From: Candidatus Thorarchaeota archaeon
GTDB taxonomy: Archaea > Asgardarchaeota > Thorarchaeia > Thorarchaeales > Thorarchaeaceae
DNA: 64,000 nucleotides
Reading direction: 5' to 3'
Assembly (NCBI GenBank): GCA_020348985.1
Contig: CP070761.1
Coordinates: 2,300,310 to 2,364,309 of the forward strand
Position 1 is the stretch's first letter. Every line of letters starts with the position of its first letter. The notes below the pieces were generated by a model. It did no database searches and was not told the origin of the DNA. It worked only from the letters and a program-made list of their open reading frames with translations. This document shows, in pieces, positions 10,774-24,158 of the stretch. Both the position numbers and the translations under genes were made by a program.

Positions 10774-11547
10774 CTATACTATGACAACAGCATCCACGAA
10801 AAGCTCGTAGTCCTCATCCTCATCCAAGTTATGAATCAGAACTTTCTCGACCTCGAATTCTCCACGTATCTCAAGCAACCTTGATTCGGTTAGTATTTTG
10901 ACTGAAGAGTTCTCAAGCTCTTCCTTCAATTCATCCGTCGTAACGATCTCATCTGCTGCGGTCAAGAGCACCACCCGGTCAGTAACTGATGTCAGCTCTA
11001 GTGCCACGTCAACTGACTCGTCTCCGGTGTGAACCACTAGAGTTCTCTTCTCCTCGAAGTCAGATGCGTCCATTACAGTCCTGTAGAGTCCATTGTCAAG
11101 ATACTCGTCAGCTCCCACGAGACAGTCAAGATCAAACTCTGTTCCGTCCTCTGACTGAATAGCCTTGATCCCGCGCTGGCGATAGTTCTTGATGGCTTCA
11201 TGTAATGCGTCCGCCGCGAGATTGGAACAATGCATCTTGATTGGAGGAAGACCATCAAGTTCGTCTGCGACATCGTCACGAGTTACCTGCATCGCCTCAT
11301 CAAGCGTCATTCCCACAACCATCTCTGTGGTCATGCTGCTTGTAGCTATCGCAGAACCACACCCAAATGTCCTGAACTTGGCCTCCACGATACGGTCGTC
11401 TTGGACACGAATGAACACTTCCATCAGATCTCCGCAAGTTGGGTTTCCGACACGGCCACTAGCTACGTCATCGCCTTCAAGAACGCCAACATTCCTGGGA
11501 TTTCTGAAGTGGTCGAGAACTTTCTCACTGTATTGTGTTGATTTCAT
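10774..11547 (-). CDS. iscU: IscU-type Fe-S scaffold fused to a degenerate thioredoxin-reductase-like half
   Basis: 257 residues against about 130-150 for ordinary IscU. Residues 1-130 are a complete scaffold: ligands C38 (NPTCGD), D40, C63 (FGCGSAIATS) and C107 (MHCSNLA). Residues about 145-257 follow the NAD(P)H-binding half of thioredoxin reductase in order, with the usual elements degraded. The position of CATC reads RTVMDAS, the Rossmann glycine motif reads HTGDESVDVA, and the strand-helix pattern VVLLTAADEI plus a C-terminal FVDAVVIV strand is kept. The added half therefore should neither do thiol redox nor bind NAD(P)H normally. It is the last gene of tusA-dsrE-iscS-iscU, 11 bases after iscS. 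Confidence 0.88.
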   Translation of the reverse strand: MKSTQYSEKVLDHFRNPRNVGVLEGDDVASGRVGNPTCGDLMEVFIRVQDDRIVEAKFRTFGCGSAIATSSMTTEMVVGMTLDEAMQVTRDDVADELDGLPPIKMHCSNLAADALHEAIKNYRQRGIKAIQSEDGTEFDLDCLVGADEYLDNGLYRTVMDASDFEEKRTLVVHTGDESVDVALELTSVTDRVVLLTAADEIVTTDELKEELENSSVKILTESRLLEIRGEFEVEKVLIHNLDEDEDYELFVDAVVIV

Positions 11548-15326: not shown

Positions 15327-17180
15327 TCAGCGGCTTCCAGACATGTAAGGGTCGTCCTTGGTGTCTATGTCTTTGTAGCCAACTTCTTCGAGGATGTCTC
15401 CCATTCTTTCTGCTCCTTCCACCCAAGTAACGCTCCACCTTCCTTGCTCGGACACAGACACCTCAATGTCCGGAAGGTCGCCGAGGAGGTTGTGATTCAT
15501 TTCGATAACGTCTTGGTACGCTCCAGTGAGTGCTATGACAAAGAACGATCCGTGAAGATTCTCGAGGCGGCCGATAGGTACTCCCTTTCCCTTCTCGGGT
15601 TTTGGCATTGTCATTGGGCGAAAGTCCTTCGTGAACCAAATGGTTTCGGTCTGAGGTCTATGGAATTGAGAGAATTCACCGTCTGAGTCACACGTTATGT
15701 CGACTAGTCTGACCGTGGTCTCAGGATGTACATCAAGTGAGGCATGAGGGACGATTGGGAAGTGCTGATGAACAAGCACATAGTCTCCTATTGCGTTGAA
15801 GACACTAAAATTTCCAACAACGATATGTTCAGGATACCAGAAGCTCCTCAACATGCCGCTGGAAATGAAATCGGTCTCACCTCTTGGTGCAAGGGTTTCA
15901 GCGATGTGTCTTCTTACTGCTGATTCAAGCTCACCAACTATCATCTCGTTTTCCAGAGTGCGTCTCAGGTCCGTTCCAGGAACAGTGTGAATTGAATGGA
16001 ACTCATTCCACAATGGTACTAGATCTTTCACTGTCGTAGTCCTAGAGATACGACCCAGCCACTCATCCCTTGCGGCCGTCAGCTCTTCTGATGTATACTC
16101 CTCTGGCTCGGGGAACACAGATCTCACTTCCAATCCTTCAACTACGACTATGGAGCCAAGAGCAGTTATTCCCCTCCCCGATTCCACTAGGATGTCAGGG
16201 GCCGGCCTCTTCGTGGAATCTACAGATAATCCCCGTTGGATGCCTTGGACTAGTTGACGAGCATACTCCTCCATGTAGTCCTCTCTGTTGGTGCTATCAT
16301 AGTCAATGGCAAGCCCTCCCCCAAAGTCGATAATCTTCAGATTTCGGAGACCCATATCCAAAAGCTCGACATACACTCTCGTCATGTATTCTCCTAGTCT
16401 TCCAAAGCTTGTGACATCCTCAATCTGCGATCCTGCATGGGCGAGAATCGTAGTGATACAGCCTTCAAATCCTGAGGCTTTGAACAACTCCACAACGCTG
16501 AACAAATCGTGAATGCTCAGACCAAACTTTGAGTCACGACCTGAAGAATGTGACCAGTGGCCTTCTACAGAGATGTACGGCTTCAGCCGCAAGACTAGCT
16601 CCGTCTTCTCAGACTCGAATCTCTCTGTGATGAGCTTTGCCTCATGAACTGATTCGACGGAGACAGCCATATGAAACCCGTCTTCCTGCATCTCATGAAT
16701 CATATCGAGGTATTCAGGATCCTTGGCTCCGTTGCAGATGATTCTCCGTTGCTTGGCGTCGCCAATGACTCGTTGGATGAGCAGCAGTTCAGCCTTTGTA
16801 CCGGCCTCCAATCCATAGGCTGGATCGGAACCCACCACCGTTGTGACACAATCTTTTCTCTGATTGACCTTGACAGGATATACAGCGAGAAACTCCCCGG
16901 GATAATCCAGATCGTTTCTGGCCTTATCGAAAGCAGACTTCAGCCGATTCATTTGGGATATTATGAGCTGAGGCACCCTTAGTGTGAAAGAAGTCGTATA
17001 GCCATCATACTCGAAATTCTTCGAATGTATTCGACGAATGATTTCTTCAAAGGAAATGGAATGTTCTCCGATTTTGAGCAGCAAGTACCCATCGTCGTCA
17101 ATGTCCAAGAACCTGAGATCATTTCTTCCGATGCCGTAGACCTTCCTTGCCTTCTCTATTGACCACTCACTCTCACTCAC
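15327..17180 (-). CDS. speA: biosynthetic arginine decarboxylase, PLP-dependent
   Basis: 617 residues, close to the usual 630. The alanine-racemase-type barrel carries the PLP lysine in YPVKVNQRK (about residue 102), HSSGRDSKFGL, and the phosphate-binding FGGGLAIDYDST. The C-terminal beta domain carries VHQHFPIVPHASLD, and the C-terminal substrate loop ends ALTGAYQDV. It converts arginine to agmatine for polyamine synthesis. Many archaea use a small pyruvoyl-dependent enzyme instead, so the bacterial-type SpeA is notable. The GTG start has an AGAGGT ribosome-binding site and lies 32 bases after the dCache-HAMP gene, so cotranscription with the sensor genes is likely. Confidence 0.92.
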   Translation of the reverse strand: MSESEWSIEKARKVYGIGRNDLRFLDIDDDGYLLLKIGEHSISFEEIIRRIHSKNFEYDGYTTSFTLRVPQLIISQMNRLKSAFDKARNDLDYPGEFLAVYPVKVNQRKDCVTTVVGSDPAYGLEAGTKAELLLIQRVIGDAKQRRIICNGAKDPEYLDMIHEMQEDGFHMAVSVESVHEAKLITERFESEKTELVLRLKPYISVEGHWSHSSGRDSKFGLSIHDLFSVVELFKASGFEGCITTILAHAGSQIEDVTSFGRLGEYMTRVYVELLDMGLRNLKIIDFGGGLAIDYDSTNREDYMEEYARQLVQGIQRGLSVDSTKRPAPDILVESGRGITALGSIVVVEGLEVRSVFPEPEEYTSEELTAARDEWLGRISRTTTVKDLVPLWNEFHSIHTVPGTDLRRTLENEMIVGELESAVRRHIAETLAPRGETDFISSGMLRSFWYPEHIVVGNFSVFNAIGDYVLVHQHFPIVPHASLDVHPETTVRLVDITCDSDGEFSQFHRPQTETIWFTKDFRPMTMPKPEKGKGVPIGRLENLHGSFFVIALTGAYQDVIEMNHNLLGDLPDIEVSVSEQGRWSVTWVEGAERMGDILEEVGYKDIDTKDDPYMSGSR

Positions 17181-17212: not shown

Positions 17213-18664
17213 CTATTCTTCTTCACCGATGGTATCAAGCATCCCTTGAAATGCTCTGGCGAGATCTCCTATCTCGTCATCCTGTGCCATGAAGGATTCG
17301 TCTACTCGTAGGTCTAGTGTATCTAGGTCTTGTTGCTTAATCATTGCTTCGACATTCCTCATAGCGAGATCCATCAAGTACTGCAATGGCTTAGCAATTT
17401 GGTTCGTAACAACCGTAGCTACAATGCCTGCCAGCACAATGCCTCCGATAGTCACCATCAAGATGAACGATATCGCCGCTGTGTTGGCTTGTGCTATCCT
17501 TGATTCAAGTTGTGGTATGGCAGCAAGCGCCTCCTCCACAGGAACTATGATTGTGCAGATGTACCCCCCGATCCCGACGGGAGCATAAGCCAGAACCATG
17601 TCTCTTCCACTATCCTGAAACTCGATGATCCCTGTACCTCCTGACGTGACTTGTATGATCTGTGCCGTTTCTAACGCTTCAAAATCTTCGAGTGCTGGAA
17701 GATCGGGTTCGTAGAATGCATAGACTGAATCATCAACCTCATGATGGGCCACAATTCCGCCGTCAGAAGTGATCAGTGTGGCATTGCCAGTGTCTAGGAC
17801 TCTGACGTCTAGAATCTTGTCTCTAATGTCATCTACAGTTATGTCACCAGCAATAATACCGAGAAGTGTTCCATTCTGATGATAGAAGGCTCTGCCTATT
17901 GAAAGCAGCAAAACACCATCTATTGGATCGTAGTACGGTCCATCGTATACAATCTCGCCTCCACCATCACGGATGGCCATATACCATTCCTCTTCTGCAG
18001 CCCTGAATTGATCCTGTGGGTCCAATCTGTCAGCTACTGTTCCACCGACCACGCTTCCGGGATAGTTGATGAAGAGGTTGTTTCTGAAAGCAACATAGAG
18101 CCATCTAAACTCAGGCATCTGATTGTGAATGTATTGGAATATGTAATCCAGATTTGAGACACGACTCAATGTTTCATTATGTTGAGTCTCATAGGTCTGG
18201 TAGTTTGTGGGAGTCGAGCCAGGAACATACCAGCTACTATAGCTGAAAGATGCATTGACCTCCCTCCACGGATCCCACTCAATATCTGTTGGAATCGGAC
18301 CTTCTGATATGTGTTCAAAGAAGTAGTCGTAGTATACTTCTCTTGCTCTAAACGTTGATTCAGTCGTGAACAATCCTTCGCATTCTTCAGCCATCGCTCT
18401 AACCATCGATTCGGCAGTCAATAGCTTTTGGTTGATTACTAGTGCATTCTGTTCAGCAGTTTGCTCTATACTTCGCTCTATCTGATTACTTAGAGCTGTT
18501 GTGCTCTCGGTAGTTGTGAAACCACCTATTAGGTCCACGAAGAACAGAGAGACTGCTCCAGTAGCTCCAAGCGAGATGATCGATATCAGAAGGAAGGTGA
18601 CTATGACATTTCTTCTGAAGCTGCCCTTCTTTTTAGTAACAGTATAAGATTGCGCCATATTCAT
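17213..18664 (-). CDS. dCache-HAMP membrane sensor without output domain
   Basis: 483 residues. A basic N-terminal tail leads into TM1 (about 19-45), an extracellular double Cache domain (about 55-395, with EEWYMAIRD, GPYYDPIDG and GDITVDDI), TM2 (about 398-420) and a HAMP region ending in an acidic C-terminus (about 422-483). It stops after HAMP: no methyl-accepting, kinase or cyclase domain follows. It therefore may transmit signal by pairing with another HAMP protein, most obviously the dCache-vWA protein encoded 7 bases upstream. Confidence 0.85.
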   Translation of the reverse strand: MNMAQSYTVTKKKGSFRRNVIVTFLLISIISLGATGAVSLFFVDLIGGFTTTESTTALSNQIERSIEQTAEQNALVINQKLLTAESMVRAMAEECEGLFTTESTFRAREVYYDYFFEHISEGPIPTDIEWDPWREVNASFSYSSWYVPGSTPTNYQTYETQHNETLSRVSNLDYIFQYIHNQMPEFRWLYVAFRNNLFINYPGSVVGGTVADRLDPQDQFRAAEEEWYMAIRDGGGEIVYDGPYYDPIDGVLLLSIGRAFYHQNGTLLGIIAGDITVDDIRDKILDVRVLDTGNATLITSDGGIVAHHEVDDSVYAFYEPDLPALEDFEALETAQIIQVTSGGTGIIEFQDSGRDMVLAYAPVGIGGYICTIIVPVEEALAAIPQLESRIAQANTAAISFILMVTIGGIVLAGIVATVVTNQIAKPLQYLMDLAMRNVEAMIKQQDLDTLDLRVDESFMAQDDEIGDLARAFQGMLDTIGEEE

Positions 18665-18671
18665 CCTCCTC

Positions 18672-21497
18672 CTAGTAGTCTACTGTCGAGCCTCCCATCT
18701 CGAGCTGTGCCATCAACACTCCCACTTGTTGGAACGCCCTTTCAATGTCGCTCTTTACGTCAATGCTGTCTACTACAGACAAGTACTGCCCTTGAGGAAT
18801 GTACTCACAGATAGATTCGAGCAGCTGTTCAATTGAGATGTCCCTATGGCCTTCTACAGCTTTTCTCAGCTCCTGGCCTACCCCAATGATAATCAAGTTG
18901 ACGTCAAGGTGTTGGCCGCGAATGAAGCCTTCGATTGTGCGGGCCTTCGTACGCTTCTGCCTATCTCTTTCAGTGCGGATTCCACTGAGCAGATCAAGTG
19001 AATATGTATCAGAGCTATTGTCTTCGCCGTCTGTGAGTGCAATGACCCATCTGTGTTCACTTGATTCAATCCTGTCCAGAGACTCCAGAGCGCTCCCGAG
19101 TGCATCGTAGAATGCGGTTGCATTGTTGGGATACCTGAGCGAATCGAGAGCACGAACAATCGGACTGTCACTTGGATCGTCGTAGTGGCCTTTCAGAGTG
19201 AGAGGAAGAATTTCTCTGTAACCTGAGTTGAAGACGATGATGCTGACTTCGTCCTGAGGATTGACTTGCGAATCAAGTATCTCTTTGGCTCCTTGGACTG
19301 CAGCCTTGATTCTGTCCTGCGCTCGCATGCTGCCCGAGTAGTCAATAACGAAGATGACGCTCTTCTTGAACATTATCGAACGCCGAAGCCGTTCAGCTTC
19401 TCTTCGTACATCATGGCTGGGTTTGTCCAGTTGGTCCAGCACATCAGCTAGTTGCTGCATGGCATAGACAACCAACCAACCCTCCTCAGCTCTTTGACCG
19501 ATTCTAATTGCATCCTGGAATTCGTCTTCGGCATTCTTCCAATCATCTTGGATTACATAGAGCTCACCCATATGATAGTGTATGAATGCTTGACTTCTTT
19601 CATAATCAATCTCTTGAGCAGTCTGAAGTGCTTCTCTAAACTTCGAGAATGCTTCACTATACATGCCCTGTTCCTTTCTCACAAGACCTGTAGCATCAAA
19701 TCGCCTGGCGAGACCCTTCTTGTTGCCAATCGTTAGGTCGATGGCGGCAGCATCGTCAAGATGTCTAATGCTCTCATCGTAGTTACCATTGTCCATCTCT
19801 ACCAGTGCCATGTTGTGGTAGACGGATGCAATTCGTGACATGGCGTCACTTTCATCCGCACTCTGTTCTTTTGCTCTCTCAAGCATTTCATTCGCCATGG
19901 CCAATGACCGTTTGTAGTAGTCCATGGCGTTGCCGGGGTCTCCCCGTTGTCTGAACACGTTACCAATATTGAGGAGCATCGTCTGAATGCCGACGTCGAT
20001 ATTCAATCTCTCGCTAATCTCCAGAAGATTCTGATAGTTAGCTAGCGCACGGTTGAGATCTCCACGAATAAACGCCTGATTTCCAAATCTTACCGCCTCT
20101 TGGAAGCTAAGCAGTGCATCCACCGTGGTTCCCACTTCTTCGAACATCGCTCCAGAAGTGTGAAGCCCTCGCGTGAAGTCCTGTTGGGCCATCTTCTCTA
20201 CGAGTCTAGTCATATCCTTGATTGGCTTCACCACGGCTTGACCTCGGCTGTAGGAACCGTAGCCGACAGCCACAACGGCAAAAGCCAGAACTCCAGCGAG
20301 AATGATTGTCATTTGAAGTGTGTTCGCTTGGACAAGACTGAGGATATCATTCGCGGGTTCTACAACCTCGTCGTAGGGAACGACCACGGCTAGTACAAAT
20401 CCCGTAGTGTTGGCTGTTGAATGGGCGATGTACCAGCTCTCACCATCTTTCTGGAATTGAGAGACACCAGAAGATGTTGAGAGAACTGTACCCAATACAC
20501 TCGTGAAATCCTGTGCTTCAGAAGATGTTTCGGAGCCGAATTCGAGATCATATATGGACTGACCCTCGGTCGTGAAGTCTCTATGAGAAACGACCTGTCC
20601 GGTGTCGGTCAACAGGAACGCGTATCCGCTGTCGAGAATCTGTATGTTGGTCACTTCTGATATCATAGTGTCAAGGGTAACGTCAGCAGATACCACACCA
20701 TATAGGGAGTTGTTGTCGAAGTGGACGGGGCGCCCCATTGAAAGCACAAGTCCCGTTGATGGGTCGCCGTATGGTCCTGTGAATGCAAGCGATGTGTTGT
20801 CCATGATGCCAACAGCATTAGTGTACCAATCCTCTCGCATGTGGTCATAGTCTGTGCCATCTTCGTACCAATCCCAGAAGTACTCTAGATTGTCATAGGG
20901 ATAGTTCCTGAACAGATGAGTTGGGCTGTAGCTGGAATCAATTCCCATGTAGAGCCAGATGTAATCCTCATTCATCTGCCTGAGTGATCGATAGATATTA
21001 TCCATGTTGCTTGAAGTCTCCACGAAGTACTGGGTAGCAGGATCCAAGTCATAGGGGTCACTTGGGTTGTTGTAGAATTCACGCGGCATGTAGTAGCAAC
21101 TAACATCAAAGGAAATCTGTGTGGACTCGTAGATGTCATAGTAAGCGCTAGTCAGCCCGGGCACAGGATGCCCCTGCCCCGCTTCCAGAACCGGGTTCCA
21201 CCAATACGAATCCTGTGGTGTGGCATTCATTCGGTTGTTGAACAATGCCTCACTATAGTCTTCCATCATGAAGACGCCGTCAAAGTATTGCTGCATGCGT
21301 TCGTCAATGAACAGAGCAGTATCACCTGCAATCCTCTGCACGTTCGCGAGTTCTTCTGACTCTAGCGCTGCCGCAGAGTCGGCTGCATTGTCATTCGATA
21401 CCCCGAAAATCGTCAATCCTGAAACAGCGGATATCACAAGTATCGGTATCAATGATACTGCAACGAAGACGATCACAATACGTTTGCTAATGTCCAA
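18672..21497 (-). CDS. dCache-HAMP-TPR-vWA transmembrane receptor
   Basis: 941 residues. TM1 (about 7-31) and an extracellular dCache domain (about 40-390) come first. The ligand region shows R-E-D-W-Y at about 221 and GPYGDPSTG, which loosely resembles the amino-acid-binding dCache signature. TM2 (about 395-418) and HAMP (about 419-468) follow, then TPR repeats (about 470-700; e.g. AMDYYKRSLAMA, AFSKFREALQTA) and a von Willebrand A domain from 709. The MIDAS is intact: D719-x-S721-x-S723, T794 and D823 (LTDGED). Output is thus a metal-dependent adhesion or scaffolding domain inside the cell rather than an enzyme. No standard two-component partner is nearby. Confidence 0.88.
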   Translation of the reverse strand: MDISKRIVIVFVAVSLIPILVISAVSGLTIFGVSNDNAADSAAALESEELANVQRIAGDTALFIDERMQQYFDGVFMMEDYSEALFNNRMNATPQDSYWWNPVLEAGQGHPVPGLTSAYYDIYESTQISFDVSCYYMPREFYNNPSDPYDLDPATQYFVETSSNMDNIYRSLRQMNEDYIWLYMGIDSSYSPTHLFRNYPYDNLEYFWDWYEDGTDYDHMREDWYTNAVGIMDNTSLAFTGPYGDPSTGLVLSMGRPVHFDNNSLYGVVSADVTLDTMISEVTNIQILDSGYAFLLTDTGQVVSHRDFTTEGQSIYDLEFGSETSSEAQDFTSVLGTVLSTSSGVSQFQKDGESWYIAHSTANTTGFVLAVVVPYDEVVEPANDILSLVQANTLQMTIILAGVLAFAVVAVGYGSYSRGQAVVKPIKDMTRLVEKMAQQDFTRGLHTSGAMFEEVGTTVDALLSFQEAVRFGNQAFIRGDLNRALANYQNLLEISERLNIDVGIQTMLLNIGNVFRQRGDPGNAMDYYKRSLAMANEMLERAKEQSADESDAMSRIASVYHNMALVEMDNGNYDESIRHLDDAAAIDLTIGNKKGLARRFDATGLVRKEQGMYSEAFSKFREALQTAQEIDYERSQAFIHYHMGELYVIQDDWKNAEDEFQDAIRIGQRAEEGWLVVYAMQQLADVLDQLDKPSHDVRREAERLRRSIMFKKSVIFVIDYSGSMRAQDRIKAAVQGAKEILDSQVNPQDEVSIIVFNSGYREILPLTLKGHYDDPSDSPIVRALDSLRYPNNATAFYDALGSALESLDRIESSEHRWVIALTDGEDNSSDTYSLDLLSGIRTERDRQKRTKARTIEGFIRGQHLDVNLIIIGVGQELRKAVEGHRDISIEQLLESICEYIPQGQYLSVVDSIDVKSDIERAFQQVGVLMAQLEMGGSTVDY

Positions 21498-21566: not shown

Positions 21567-23006
21567 TCATTGAGCTTTGAGTTCCTTCTCCAACTTCCAA
21601 ATGAATTGACTAATCTCTTGTCCGGCGTCCAAGGTGAATGTGTCCTCAGAGAAGACCCCTTCTATTTCACCTTCGCCAAGCAAGATTAGTAGGGTCCTCC
21701 TTAGGATTCGTCTGTCTATCCCAGTCTCTTTCTCAAGCCTGAGAATATCCAATGTCTCCCTTCCTTCCAGCAAATCTCGTATCGAGGCCATTGTCTTGTC
21801 GATTGTCTGCTTATTTGGCCGAGGAAGTTTCCTCTTTCTCGGCTTCTTGGTCCGGACGAAAGTACTACCATCAATGTGGCCCTCAATGGCTCCTGCCTGT
21901 ATCATCGCCTGCAGTGAGCGTCGCAGATTGTAGGCAGCCGGTCTTGGCAAGGTTCTTCGGAGAATTCGGTCTAACTCTTTCAGCTCAATGCGATGGTGCT
22001 TTGACGTTATTGAATCAATGCTTTCCTGAATGTATTCCTCAATCACGTATTCGGCGAGTACTTCGAGCTGAGCTCCACATGACTCGCATTTGGCGGCTTC
22101 AGGCGAAGCCGGTGCCCCGCAGTTTCCACACTTGATAGCACGTCGATAGACTGCGTCCTTGGTCGAGTCAATCTGCTGAAGAATCACTTGCTCAGATTTT
22201 GATGCCTTTCCTGTTTCCTGAACTTCCCAGAAGCTCAGTCTCTTATCCCGCGTGCTCACGACTAGATAGGCAACATCTGAAACATCATCAGGGATGCCCG
22301 TAGCCATTGCTTTGGGCGCCGCTTCAATATCAAGTGAAGTGATTTGATTTCCATCTATGTCCCAAATCCTGAGCACGGAAGAGTGATCACCAGTTACGAA
22401 GAGTCGTCTCTCCCCGAAAGTCAGGACGGCGAACGTTGTCAGTGCAGCTCCGAGTTGAAGATCCTTCAACTTGTATCCTGCTGCTGTCAGTATAGTGACC
22501 ACGCCCTTTCTGTCGGCAATTACAACTTCCAGTTCAGTGTCGTTTGTTATGTCCTCTAGCCAGACATCTGCGACAGGACGGTCCATGGTCCGACTGAAGA
22601 GTGCATTCTTGTCATCATTCCACAGGATTACTCGTCGATTCTGAAGAGCTACGACTACCTCGGCAGCGTCATCCCCATCTATGTCTCTAGCATCACAAGC
22701 AACAACTGAGCTTTCCAGTCCAATGTTCCATATTGGGCTTCCTTGATGGTCAACTACTAGCACCTTCTTGCCAACGCCGCCTACAAGGGAGTCCTTTCCA
22801 ACGCCCTCTACGTCGGCAACAGCAATGCATCTGACTTTGCTGCTCCACTTCCTGGTGGATCGGAGAGTTCCCCGGGCATCGTATACTCGTAGCTTATCGC
22901 TGTAGTCAAGGGAGAAAATCTGTGTTCTTGCATCAAGTCGTTGACGGACATAAACCGAGTAGACATTCGCAGAAGTAGGAACCTTCGCAACCGAGCGAAT
23001 ACGCAA
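21567..23006 (-). CDS. beta-propeller, zinc ribbon and tandem winged-helix protein
   Basis: 479 residues from TTG 23006. Residues about 1-275 form WD40-like propeller blades (e.g. IFSLDYSDKLRVYD, VLRIWDIDGNQ, FVTGDHSSVLRIWD). A CGNCG/CESCG zinc ribbon follows (about 288-310). Two related winged-helix units come next (about 335-385 and 400-455), with lines such as MIQAGAIEGHIDGSTF and LLGEGEIEGVFSEDTF that recall the wing of PCI domains. No membrane segment. Encoded 69 bases before the dCache-vWA gene and probably in the same transcript; its role could be a cytosolic adaptor or regulator. Confidence 0.75.
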   Translation of the reverse strand: MRIRSVAKVPTSANVYSVYVRQRLDARTQIFSLDYSDKLRVYDARGTLRSTRKWSSKVRCIAVADVEGVGKDSLVGGVGKKVLVVDHQGSPIWNIGLESSVVACDARDIDGDDAAEVVVALQNRRVILWNDDKNALFSRTMDRPVADVWLEDITNDTELEVVIADRKGVVTILTAAGYKLKDLQLGAALTTFAVLTFGERRLFVTGDHSSVLRIWDIDGNQITSLDIEAAPKAMATGIPDDVSDVAYLVVSTRDKRLSFWEVQETGKASKSEQVILQQIDSTKDAVYRRAIKCGNCGAPASPEAAKCESCGAQLEVLAEYVIEEYIQESIDSITSKHHRIELKELDRILRRTLPRPAAYNLRRSLQAMIQAGAIEGHIDGSTFVRTKKPRKRKLPRPNKQTIDKTMASIRDLLEGRETLDILRLEKETGIDRRILRRTLLILLGEGEIEGVFSEDTFTLDAGQEISQFIWKLEKELKAQ

Positions 23007-23043
23007 CTAAACAAGCACCTTGAATGTTCTTATCTTGTATATG

Positions 23044-23051
23044 CATATAAG
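23044..23051 (+). promoter_or_regulatory. TATA box of the histone-deacetylase-family gene
   Basis: CATATAAG lies about 25 bases before ATG 23076, predicting a nearly leaderless mRNA. This supports 23076 over an in-frame ATG at 22941. Confidence 0.55.
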
Positions 23052-23075
23052 TGTGCACGCGCGCCGGAGTCCGCC

Positions 23076-24158
23076 ATGAGCCAGACACCGACGAAATGTG
23101 ATGTGGGATTCATCTGGAGCTCGAGTCTTGAGAAATTCGACTTTGGTAGAAGACACCCCATCAGAGTCGGCAGGTTCCAAATGGTTCGTGACTTCTTGGA
23201 CGAGACACAGTTTCTTGAGCAGCCTAACGTCTGCGTGATTGAGCCAAAACGGATGCCTGAAGACCTATTGAGTCAGGTGCACTCTCAGACGTACTTGGAT
23301 CAGGTAAAACGGATTTCAGAAACCGGTGAGGGTGAGATCGATGTCGACACCCCTGGATTCAAAGGTATTTACGAGAACGCAAGCATCGCCTCTGGAGGAA
23401 CTGTGTCTGGCGTCAAGGCAATCCTTGATGGAAGAATCAAGCACTTTCTCTCGCCAACTGGTGGGTTTCATCATGCCATGTACGAGAGAGGCGGTGGTTT
23501 CTGTATTTTCAATGATGTCGCAGCGGCAGTCTACATGCTCAAGAGTCAAGGTGTAAACAAGATACTTGTTGCCGATTTCGATGTTCATCATGGCAACGGA
23601 ACACAGAGATACTTCTACAAAGATCCAGATGTCATGGTTATTTCATTTCACCTAGATCCAGAATGGATGTATCCTCACGACGGGTTCATTCATGATATTG
23701 GAGAAGGACCCAGTCGTGGTCACAACATAAACATGCATTTCCCAATGGACGCGGGGGACGCAGTCTATGGATTCGCTTTCGATGAAATTGTCCCACCCTT
23801 GATTGATTGGTTCCAACCTGAATTTATCCTATTCCTGCCTGGATTTGACGCCCATTACTTGGACAGACTGGCCAACATGACACTAACTACAACCATGATT
23901 CGATACGTGGCATCGGAGATCCATGATGCAGCTCACAAATGGGCTAGTGGCCGCCTAGGGGTTCTATCGGGTGGGGGGTATCATCCAGACGCGTTCAGAT
24001 GGGGAGTAGGAGAAGTCATGTCTATTCTGTCCGGACACCCCTATGATGCACCTCCTCAAGAGCCGCCGTTCGAAGATGATGAGGAAACATGGGAGATTGT
24101 TCGAAGCAATGTATCTGAGGTCAAGAGGCTCGTCTTTCCAGAGCTTGGAATCGAATGA
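23076..24158 (+). CDS. histone deacetylase-family (AcuC/HDAC-like) hydrolase
   Basis: 360 residues. The arginase/deacetylase fold markers are complete: the catalytic His pair in GGFHHAMYERGGGFC, the zinc ligands in VADFDVHHGNGTQ and PGFDAHYLDRL, and the GGGYHPDA loop near the end. The family removes acyl groups from lysines or acts on acetylated small amines such as acetylpolyamines. It is divergent from the sensor operon that ends with arginine decarboxylase, so an acetylpolyamine role is possible but unproven. Confidence 0.9.
   Translation: MSQTPTKCDVGFIWSSSLEKFDFGRRHPIRVGRFQMVRDFLDETQFLEQPNVCVIEPKRMPEDLLSQVHSQTYLDQVKRISETGEGEIDVDTPGFKGIYENASIASGGTVSGVKAILDGRIKHFLSPTGGFHHAMYERGGGFCIFNDVAAAVYMLKSQGVNKILVADFDVHHGNGTQRYFYKDPDVMVISFHLDPEWMYPHDGFIHDIGEGPSRGHNINMHFPMDAGDAVYGFAFDEIVPPLIDWFQPEFILFLPGFDAHYLDRLANMTLTTTMIRYVASEIHDAAHKWASGRLGVLSGGGYHPDAFRWGVGEVMSILSGHPYDAPPQEPPFEDDEETWEIVRSNVSEVKRLVFPELGIE

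Follow-up and report, generated by a model that had tools for sequence, protein, structure and literature searches.

Known receptors with a HAMP domain have a kinase, a cyclase or a chemotaxis domain as their output. The window considered here, a 64,000-nucleotide stretch of a Thorarchaeota genome, encodes a membrane receptor (receptor A) whose HAMP domain is followed by tetratricopeptide repeats (TPR) and a von Willebrand factor A (vWA) domain, which raises the question of what this receptor senses and how it passes on the signal. Its gene lies in a minus-strand cassette that opens with a beta-propeller protein (protein C) and continues with receptor A, a second receptor (receptor B) and a SpeA-type arginine decarboxylase. 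The explanation favored here, with a probability of about 0.55, is that protein C, receptors A and B and SpeA are one functional unit that carries out amine-sensing HAMP-vWA signalling.

Receptor A (941 amino acids; 18672..21497, minus strand) has the domain order TM1-dCache_1-TM2-HAMP-TPR-vWA, as judged from Pfam, a structure model, hydropathy and its relatives. The reading frame is open over 941 codons, starts with TTG and has a GGAGG-type ribosome site about 10 nucleotides upstream. TM1 (residues 7-25; 21423..21479) was assigned from hydropathy and falls in a helix spanning residues 2-85 of the model. It is followed by an extracellular helix and the dCache_1 sensor (residues ~30-393; 20319..21410; Pfam, model and fold match), TM2 (residues 394-412; 20262..20318; hydropathy), the HAMP domain (residues ~413-470; 20088..20261), the TPR array (residues ~471-709; 19371..20087; Pfam and model) and the vWA domain with a full metal ion-dependent adhesion site (MIDAS) (residues ~711-932; 18702..19367; Pfam, model and alignment). 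Pfam scores are 59 bits for dCache_1 (cut-off 45), 88 bits for TPR_12, 51 bits for VWA_2 (cut-off 27) and 35 bits for VWA (cut-off 23.8), and no NCBIfam family scores above its cut-off for receptor A. The AlphaFold model, which was built with 25 homologues, has a mean pLDDT of 79 and is numbered one residue lower than the reading frame, consists of the dCache domain, a long membrane-crossing helix, a helix-loop-helix in the place of HAMP, TPR hairpins and an alpha/beta vWA domain. In Foldseek comparisons the dCache part of the model resembles amino-acid chemoreceptors, and the TPR part resembles LGN and kinesin light chain.

The HAMP domain falls below the Pfam cut-off in the window's own receptors A and B but passes it in relatives of both, which for receptor A include L094 (37.5 bits), L105 (35.2 bits), G054 (36.3 bits) and G044 (26.4 bits). 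The model is HAMP-like at this place, with a helix at 374-436, a loop and a helix at 452-477, although the pLDDT there is only about 50. Both transmembrane segments are flanked by negative charge on the outer side and positive charge on the inner side, and the topology predicted from the sequence is one in which dCache is outside and the TPR-vWA tail, with everything after residue 412, is inside. An extracellular vWA domain was rejected on the basis of this charge bias and the order relative to HAMP. A frameshifted kinase remnant was likewise rejected since the frame is open and is kept in nearly all relatives, as was a chimeric assembly since dozens of independent genomes show the identical gene order. 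A sequence-only reading of this DNA had described a 941-residue chain with an extracellular dCache domain, HAMP, TPR and an intracellular vWA domain, and Pfam, topology and model agree with it, with HAMP resting on the relatives and the helix-loop-helix. Structure prediction, one of the follow-ups which that reading proposed, thus returned both the HAMP-like element (at low pLDDT) and the vWA fold. The described architecture stands, but that reading took the receptor for a single chain and overlooked an obligate HAMP partner, the propeller protein, the linkage to speA and an altered ligand motif.

Neither receptor A nor receptor B has a HisKA, HATPase_c or MCPsignal domain in Pfam searches, nor any enzyme domain, in keeping with the earlier proposal of an output other than a kinase, cyclase or chemotaxis domain. 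The MIDAS, which had also been called complete (D719-x-S-x-S, T794, D823), is indeed so: D719, S721, S723, T794 and D823 are identical in all 62 of 62 relatives. This alignment points to strict selection on the MIDAS throughout the Asgard lineages. Since the vWA domain is the sole conserved candidate in receptors that lack an enzyme, it is taken as the probable output, in which role it would act as a putative metal-dependent binding switch.

The domain search of archaeal proteomes that had also been suggested recovers this architecture widely among Asgard archaea. With a receptor A profile, 68 of 228 Asgard genomes turn out to hold relatives (E <= 1e-60), far beyond what chance would give, as against none of the 165 non-Asgard genomes (E <= 1e-40) in a wider, non-exhaustive sample of 393. 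The contig scan was queried with dCache peptides, so that bacterial proteins of equal architecture with another sensor would escape it. Identity to receptor A is 60-69% within Thorarchaeota, 36% in Hermodarchaeota and 32-34% in Heimdallarchaeota, and further families hold diverged full-length and shortened relatives at about 23-30%. Two records labeled Lokiarchaeota (L045 and L073) nest in the Thorarchaeota clade of the receptor tree and are probably misnamed bins. The genome that contains the window has two dCache_1 domains in total, those of receptors A and B. Thorarchaeota genomes with receptor A have two dCache_1 domains, rarely three, and in nearly every one these belong to receptors A and B alone; genomes without receptor A have none, except G223, which retains receptor B. 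HAMP is almost confined to the receptor pair in Thorarchaeota, with few other proteins carrying it, while HATPase_c proteins are plentiful. No MCP domain scores over the cut-off among the Thorarchaeota-family genomes searched. A true dCache-HAMP-MCP chemoreceptor occurs in an Asgard genome (G133; L163:3541-5592).

The last gene of the cassette (15327..17180, minus strand) starts 32 bp after receptor B and encodes a SpeA-type arginine decarboxylase of 617 amino acids, identified by profile and synteny; its score of 344 against a cut-off of 369 leaves its specificity uncertain. The speA gene directly follows receptor B in 33 loci. Receptor A and speA occur together in 48 of the 228 genomes (odds ratio 32, uncorrected for relatedness), and in 42 of these 48 a single contig carries both, no more than 20 kb apart. 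Of the remaining six, two appear to be contig breaks and one still has receptor B beside speA. In some Heimdallarchaeota speA is divergent from receptor A at a distance of about 200 bp, and elsewhere it is downstream. That the linkage is retained in Heimdallarchaeota, where receptor A is 32% identical to that of Thorarchaeota, and in differing orientations, argues for a functional tie between the two genes. Heimdallarchaeal loci such as L070:14633-16072 have a second PLP decarboxylase (lysA-like) downstream of speA, which suggests a larger amine or amino-acid operon.

Alternatively, the linkage to speA could be incidental, the cassette being a general nutrient or environmental sensor that shares a promoter with speA in some lineages only. 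Families f2, f27 and f28 have no speA near receptor A, which fits such a sensor and indicates that speA is not a general target, and a diverged speA persists in Thorarchaeota genomes that lack receptor A. An incidental association sits less easily with a linkage that spans Thorarchaeota and Heimdallarchaeota in differing orientations and coincides with the change in ligand motif described below, and it is considered rather unlikely. Action of the cassette on speA itself is nonetheless doubtful as a separate claim.

The ligand pocket offers a second line of evidence on what is sensed. The dCache motif of receptor A reads Y217-x4-E222-x-W224-Y225 ... Y243-x-D245 ... D272. In an alignment with PctA, E222 (codon at 20832..20834, minus strand) occupies the position of the carboxylate-binding R126, PctA itself reading Y-x4-R126-x-W-Y, and the equivalents of W128, Y129, Y144, D146 and D173 are retained. 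Following the dCache_1AA definition of PMC10104139 and PMC9901441, in which the carboxylate-binding arginine is a key position of the amino-acid motif, receptor A falls outside the class, as this arginine is replaced (by E222 in receptor A and by Glu in the window's receptor B) while the other motif positions are largely kept. The ligand carboxylate is held by R126, a residue that amine sensors do not conserve (PMC10104139). Among 53 receptor A sequences the position holds Glu in 31 and Gln in 8, and among 52 receptor B sequences Glu in 29, Asp in 11 and Gln in 7. Some speA-linked receptors of Heimdallarchaeota and Hermodarchaeota have Tyr, Trp or Phe at this position with an acidic residue one position before, and one has Ser. 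Arginine is found in receptor A only in L103, L106, L107 and L108, none of which is linked to speA, and genome G103 has both kinds, with Glu in the speA-linked L109 and Arg in the unlinked L108. Two changes on the receptor tree suffice for the speA label, so the correlation between arginine and speA reflects few independent changes and could be explained by shared ancestry.

In the amine sensors TlpQ and McpU the primary amine is held by a Y-x-D...D set (PMC6234866). At the level of the motif, receptor A resembles them in retaining a Tyr-x-Asp that is followed further on by another Asp. Of the dCache_1AM positions, W224-Y225, V251-x-S253 and D272 are shared, and the insert residues W155, R103 and D133 (PctD numbering) are not alignable. 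Equating E222 with Glu170 of TlpQ was dropped because the spacing differs. The replacement of the carboxylate-binding arginine together with retention of residues of the amine-holding kind favors a decarboxylated amine, and it is tentatively proposed, at somewhat under even odds, that the ligand is a small cationic compound of the agmatine or putrescine kind rather than an alpha-amino acid. The pair could instead sense arginine or another alpha-amino acid, with speA, whose product acts on arginine, regulated by its own substrate. Most of the dCache_1AA motif (W, Y, Y, D) is retained, the closest solved sensors (Mlp24, Mlp37, PctA, PctB and PctC) are all of the amino-acid type, and the family itself includes members with the arginine. 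The substitution of that arginine by Glu, Gln or Asp in most speA-linked receptors A and B makes an amino-acid ligand unlikely.

Receptor B (483 amino acids; 17213..18664, minus strand), characterized from Pfam, sequence and its pairing with receptor A, has the order TM-dCache_1-TM-HAMP. It begins 7 bp downstream of receptor A, and the chain ends with DDEIGxLARAFQGMLD, stopping right after the HAMP motif without an output domain. Receptor B or a short form, B', directly follows receptor A on the same strand with a gap of no more than 16 bp in 58 of 58 receptor A genes, a count that leaves out a 59th row (L111, 727 amino acids), which is an unrelated TPR protein. Members of family f2 (L094-L098) have a receptor A' of 575 amino acids with the order TM-TM-HAMP-TPR-vWA and a B' of about 150 amino acids with the order TM-HAMP. 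These two proteins have lost dCache jointly while each has retained its HAMP domain. Nothing else argues as strongly that the two work as one receptor, and receptors A and B probably constitute a heteromeric pair. They could also be independent homodimeric receptors that are only co-transcribed, with receptor B as a decoy or second sensor outside any shared complex. Each is a complete TM-dCache-TM-HAMP chain, and in Hermodarchaeota the HAMP domain of receptor B is followed by a zinc ribbon and HEAT repeats (L067:2700-4655 and L076:10661-12411), showing that receptor B is able to carry an output. Independent receptors are nevertheless distinctly improbable, since the unbroken adjacency and the joint sensor loss would be difficult to account for if the two did not associate physically, and a TM-HAMP protein of 150 amino acids has no obvious function by itself.

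Receptor B generally lacks an output domain; the Hermodarchaeal zinc ribbon and HEAT repeats are a possible second output. In genome G023 (L012/L043), a receptor A gene at 196731-199577 contains an in-frame TAA and adjoins a fused or altered receptor B, and an intact receptor B lies beside speA 180 kb away; either a rearrangement or an assembly error could be responsible.

The paired receptors have a third companion in protein C (479 amino acids; 21567..23006, minus strand), which was assigned from a model, a profile and co-occurrence. Its structure, predicted with good confidence (pLDDT 87), combines a beta-propeller with a zinc ribbon and a pair of winged-helix domains. Protein C is found in 33 of the 35 Thorarchaeota genomes with receptor A, both exceptions being contigs that end at receptor A, and is missing from 10 of the 12 without it; the remaining two are likely assembly gaps (in G223 receptor B is at a contig end). 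Fisher's test for this co-occurrence gives p 8e-7, uncorrected for relatedness. Protein C accompanies the receptors in Thorarchaeota and most other lineages. It follows receptor B in families f2, f27 and f28, is either after or convergent beside receptor B beyond Thorarchaeota, and is non-adjacent in family f22 (L111). Both winged helices of Thorarchaeota are Arg-rich, and none was detected outside this lineage, as judged by length and Pfam, which suggests that these Thorarchaeota-specific domains may act on nucleic acid. Contacts between vWA domains and propellers are known from integrins. As protein C travels with receptors A and B it is favored as the docking partner of the receptor A vWA domain, for which the chances are put at even. 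Kinship with the BBSome, G-beta or the KICSTOR protein ITFG2 is not claimed, the matches being those of generic WD-type propellers. In most Thorarchaeota loci protein C adjoins a gene for a histone-deacetylase-family protein, which in the window (22941-24158; 252 bits) is divergent from the cassette. Elsewhere in the window, positions 10774-11547 encode a NifU-type scaffold whose C-terminal half resembles thioredoxin reductase; the gene adjoins NifS and a DsrE-like gene.

In the proposed mechanism, receptors A and B would form a joint, probably heteromeric, transmembrane sensor, to which receptor B would contribute a second sensor and HAMP domain and, in this genome, no output. The ligand, a small cationic molecule and most likely a decarboxylated amine such as agmatine or putrescine, would bind the membrane-distal dCache pocket, and TM2 would pass the signal to the HAMP bundle, whose state would alter the presentation of the TPR-vWA tail. 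Through its MIDAS-bound metal, the vWA domain could then bind or release an acidic group carried by a partner in the cytosol. Protein C, with its propeller as the docking part, is the leading candidate for this partner. In Thorarchaeota the winged helices of protein C could act on nucleic acid, adjusting production of agmatine and polyamines by SpeA among other targets. Control of a chaperone or maturation machine through a MoxR-type AAA+ ATPase, to which weak matches with the BatB and BatC families and the vWA-TPR pairing typical of Bat/MoxR-vWA-TPR systems would point, is very unlikely given that no AAA+ gene is present among the conserved cassette members examined, a subset of neighbors having been profiled.

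Should amine-sensing HAMP-vWA signalling by the paired receptors hold, the pair, which accounts for almost every dCache and HAMP domain of Thorarchaeota, would be a main route by which these archaea sense extracellular small molecules. The proposal makes the ligand class predictable from one residue swap, with the arginine-type members as natural controls, and names two candidate protein partners. Asgard archaea are the closest relatives of eukaryotes, and the cassette combines in them dCache and vWA, the modules of animal calcium-channel alpha2delta subunits. The searchable literature yielded no account of a Cache-HAMP-TPR-vWA receptor. A 2016 survey of Cache domains lists chemotaxis, kinase, cyclase, phosphatase, transcription factor and ion channel outputs, vWA figuring there solely in connection with ion channels (alpha2delta) (PMC4822843), and in a survey of archaeal two-component systems the Cache domains of histidine kinases are almost only in Methanomicrobia (PMC5847659). 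There is a fair chance that the architecture of receptor A deserves its own class. The fuller description, of a separate Asgard class of heteromeric, phosphorylation-free dCache-HAMP receptors in which a MIDAS vWA domain docks a beta-propeller effector and sensors for amines, amino acids or nothing are exchanged on a conserved HAMP-TPR-vWA/HAMP/propeller core, is possible but should be taken as provisional.

Heimdallarchaeal family f20 encodes an alpha2delta-like protein (L154:3042-4829 in G096; L156:6006-7610 in G102; L155:3263-6306 in G106, with a broken frame), with a MIDAS vWA domain inserted in dCache_1 between YDPRTRPWY and the Y...D half and a transmembrane segment near each end. Beside its gene are one for another dCache protein and one for an LRR protein with a zinc ribbon. 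Animal alpha2delta-1 has the same split of the amino-acid motif by vWA (PMC9901441).

Among known systems, the dCache_1 chemoreceptors PctA, Mlp24 and Mlp37 have the TM-dCache_1-TM-HAMP sensory half in common with receptor A, as well as a similar fold and most pocket residues. Receptor A differs from them in that it lacks the MCP signalling domain, has a TPR-vWA output and comes with an obligate second receptor. The dCache_1AM amine sensors TlpQ and McpU, like receptor A, have the Y-x-D and final Asp and no arginine at the carboxylate position. Known dCache amine sensors are, unlike receptor A, chemoreceptors, kinases, cyclases or phosphatases, and the full AM motif is unestablished for receptor A. 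HAMP sensor histidine kinases share the relay from sensor through membrane to HAMP, whereas receptors A and B have neither HisKA nor HATPase. Bat/MoxR-vWA-TPR systems likewise use vWA and TPR as binding modules; the cassette differs in being receptor-linked and in that an AAA+ ATPase was not found with it. The metazoan alpha2delta subunits and CACHD1, both matched by the receptor B profile, resemble receptor A in having dCache_1 and a MIDAS vWA domain in one membrane chain. The vWA domain of alpha2delta is extracellular and inserted in dCache (PMC9901441), whereas that of receptor A is predicted to be cytosolic and follows TM2, HAMP and TPR.
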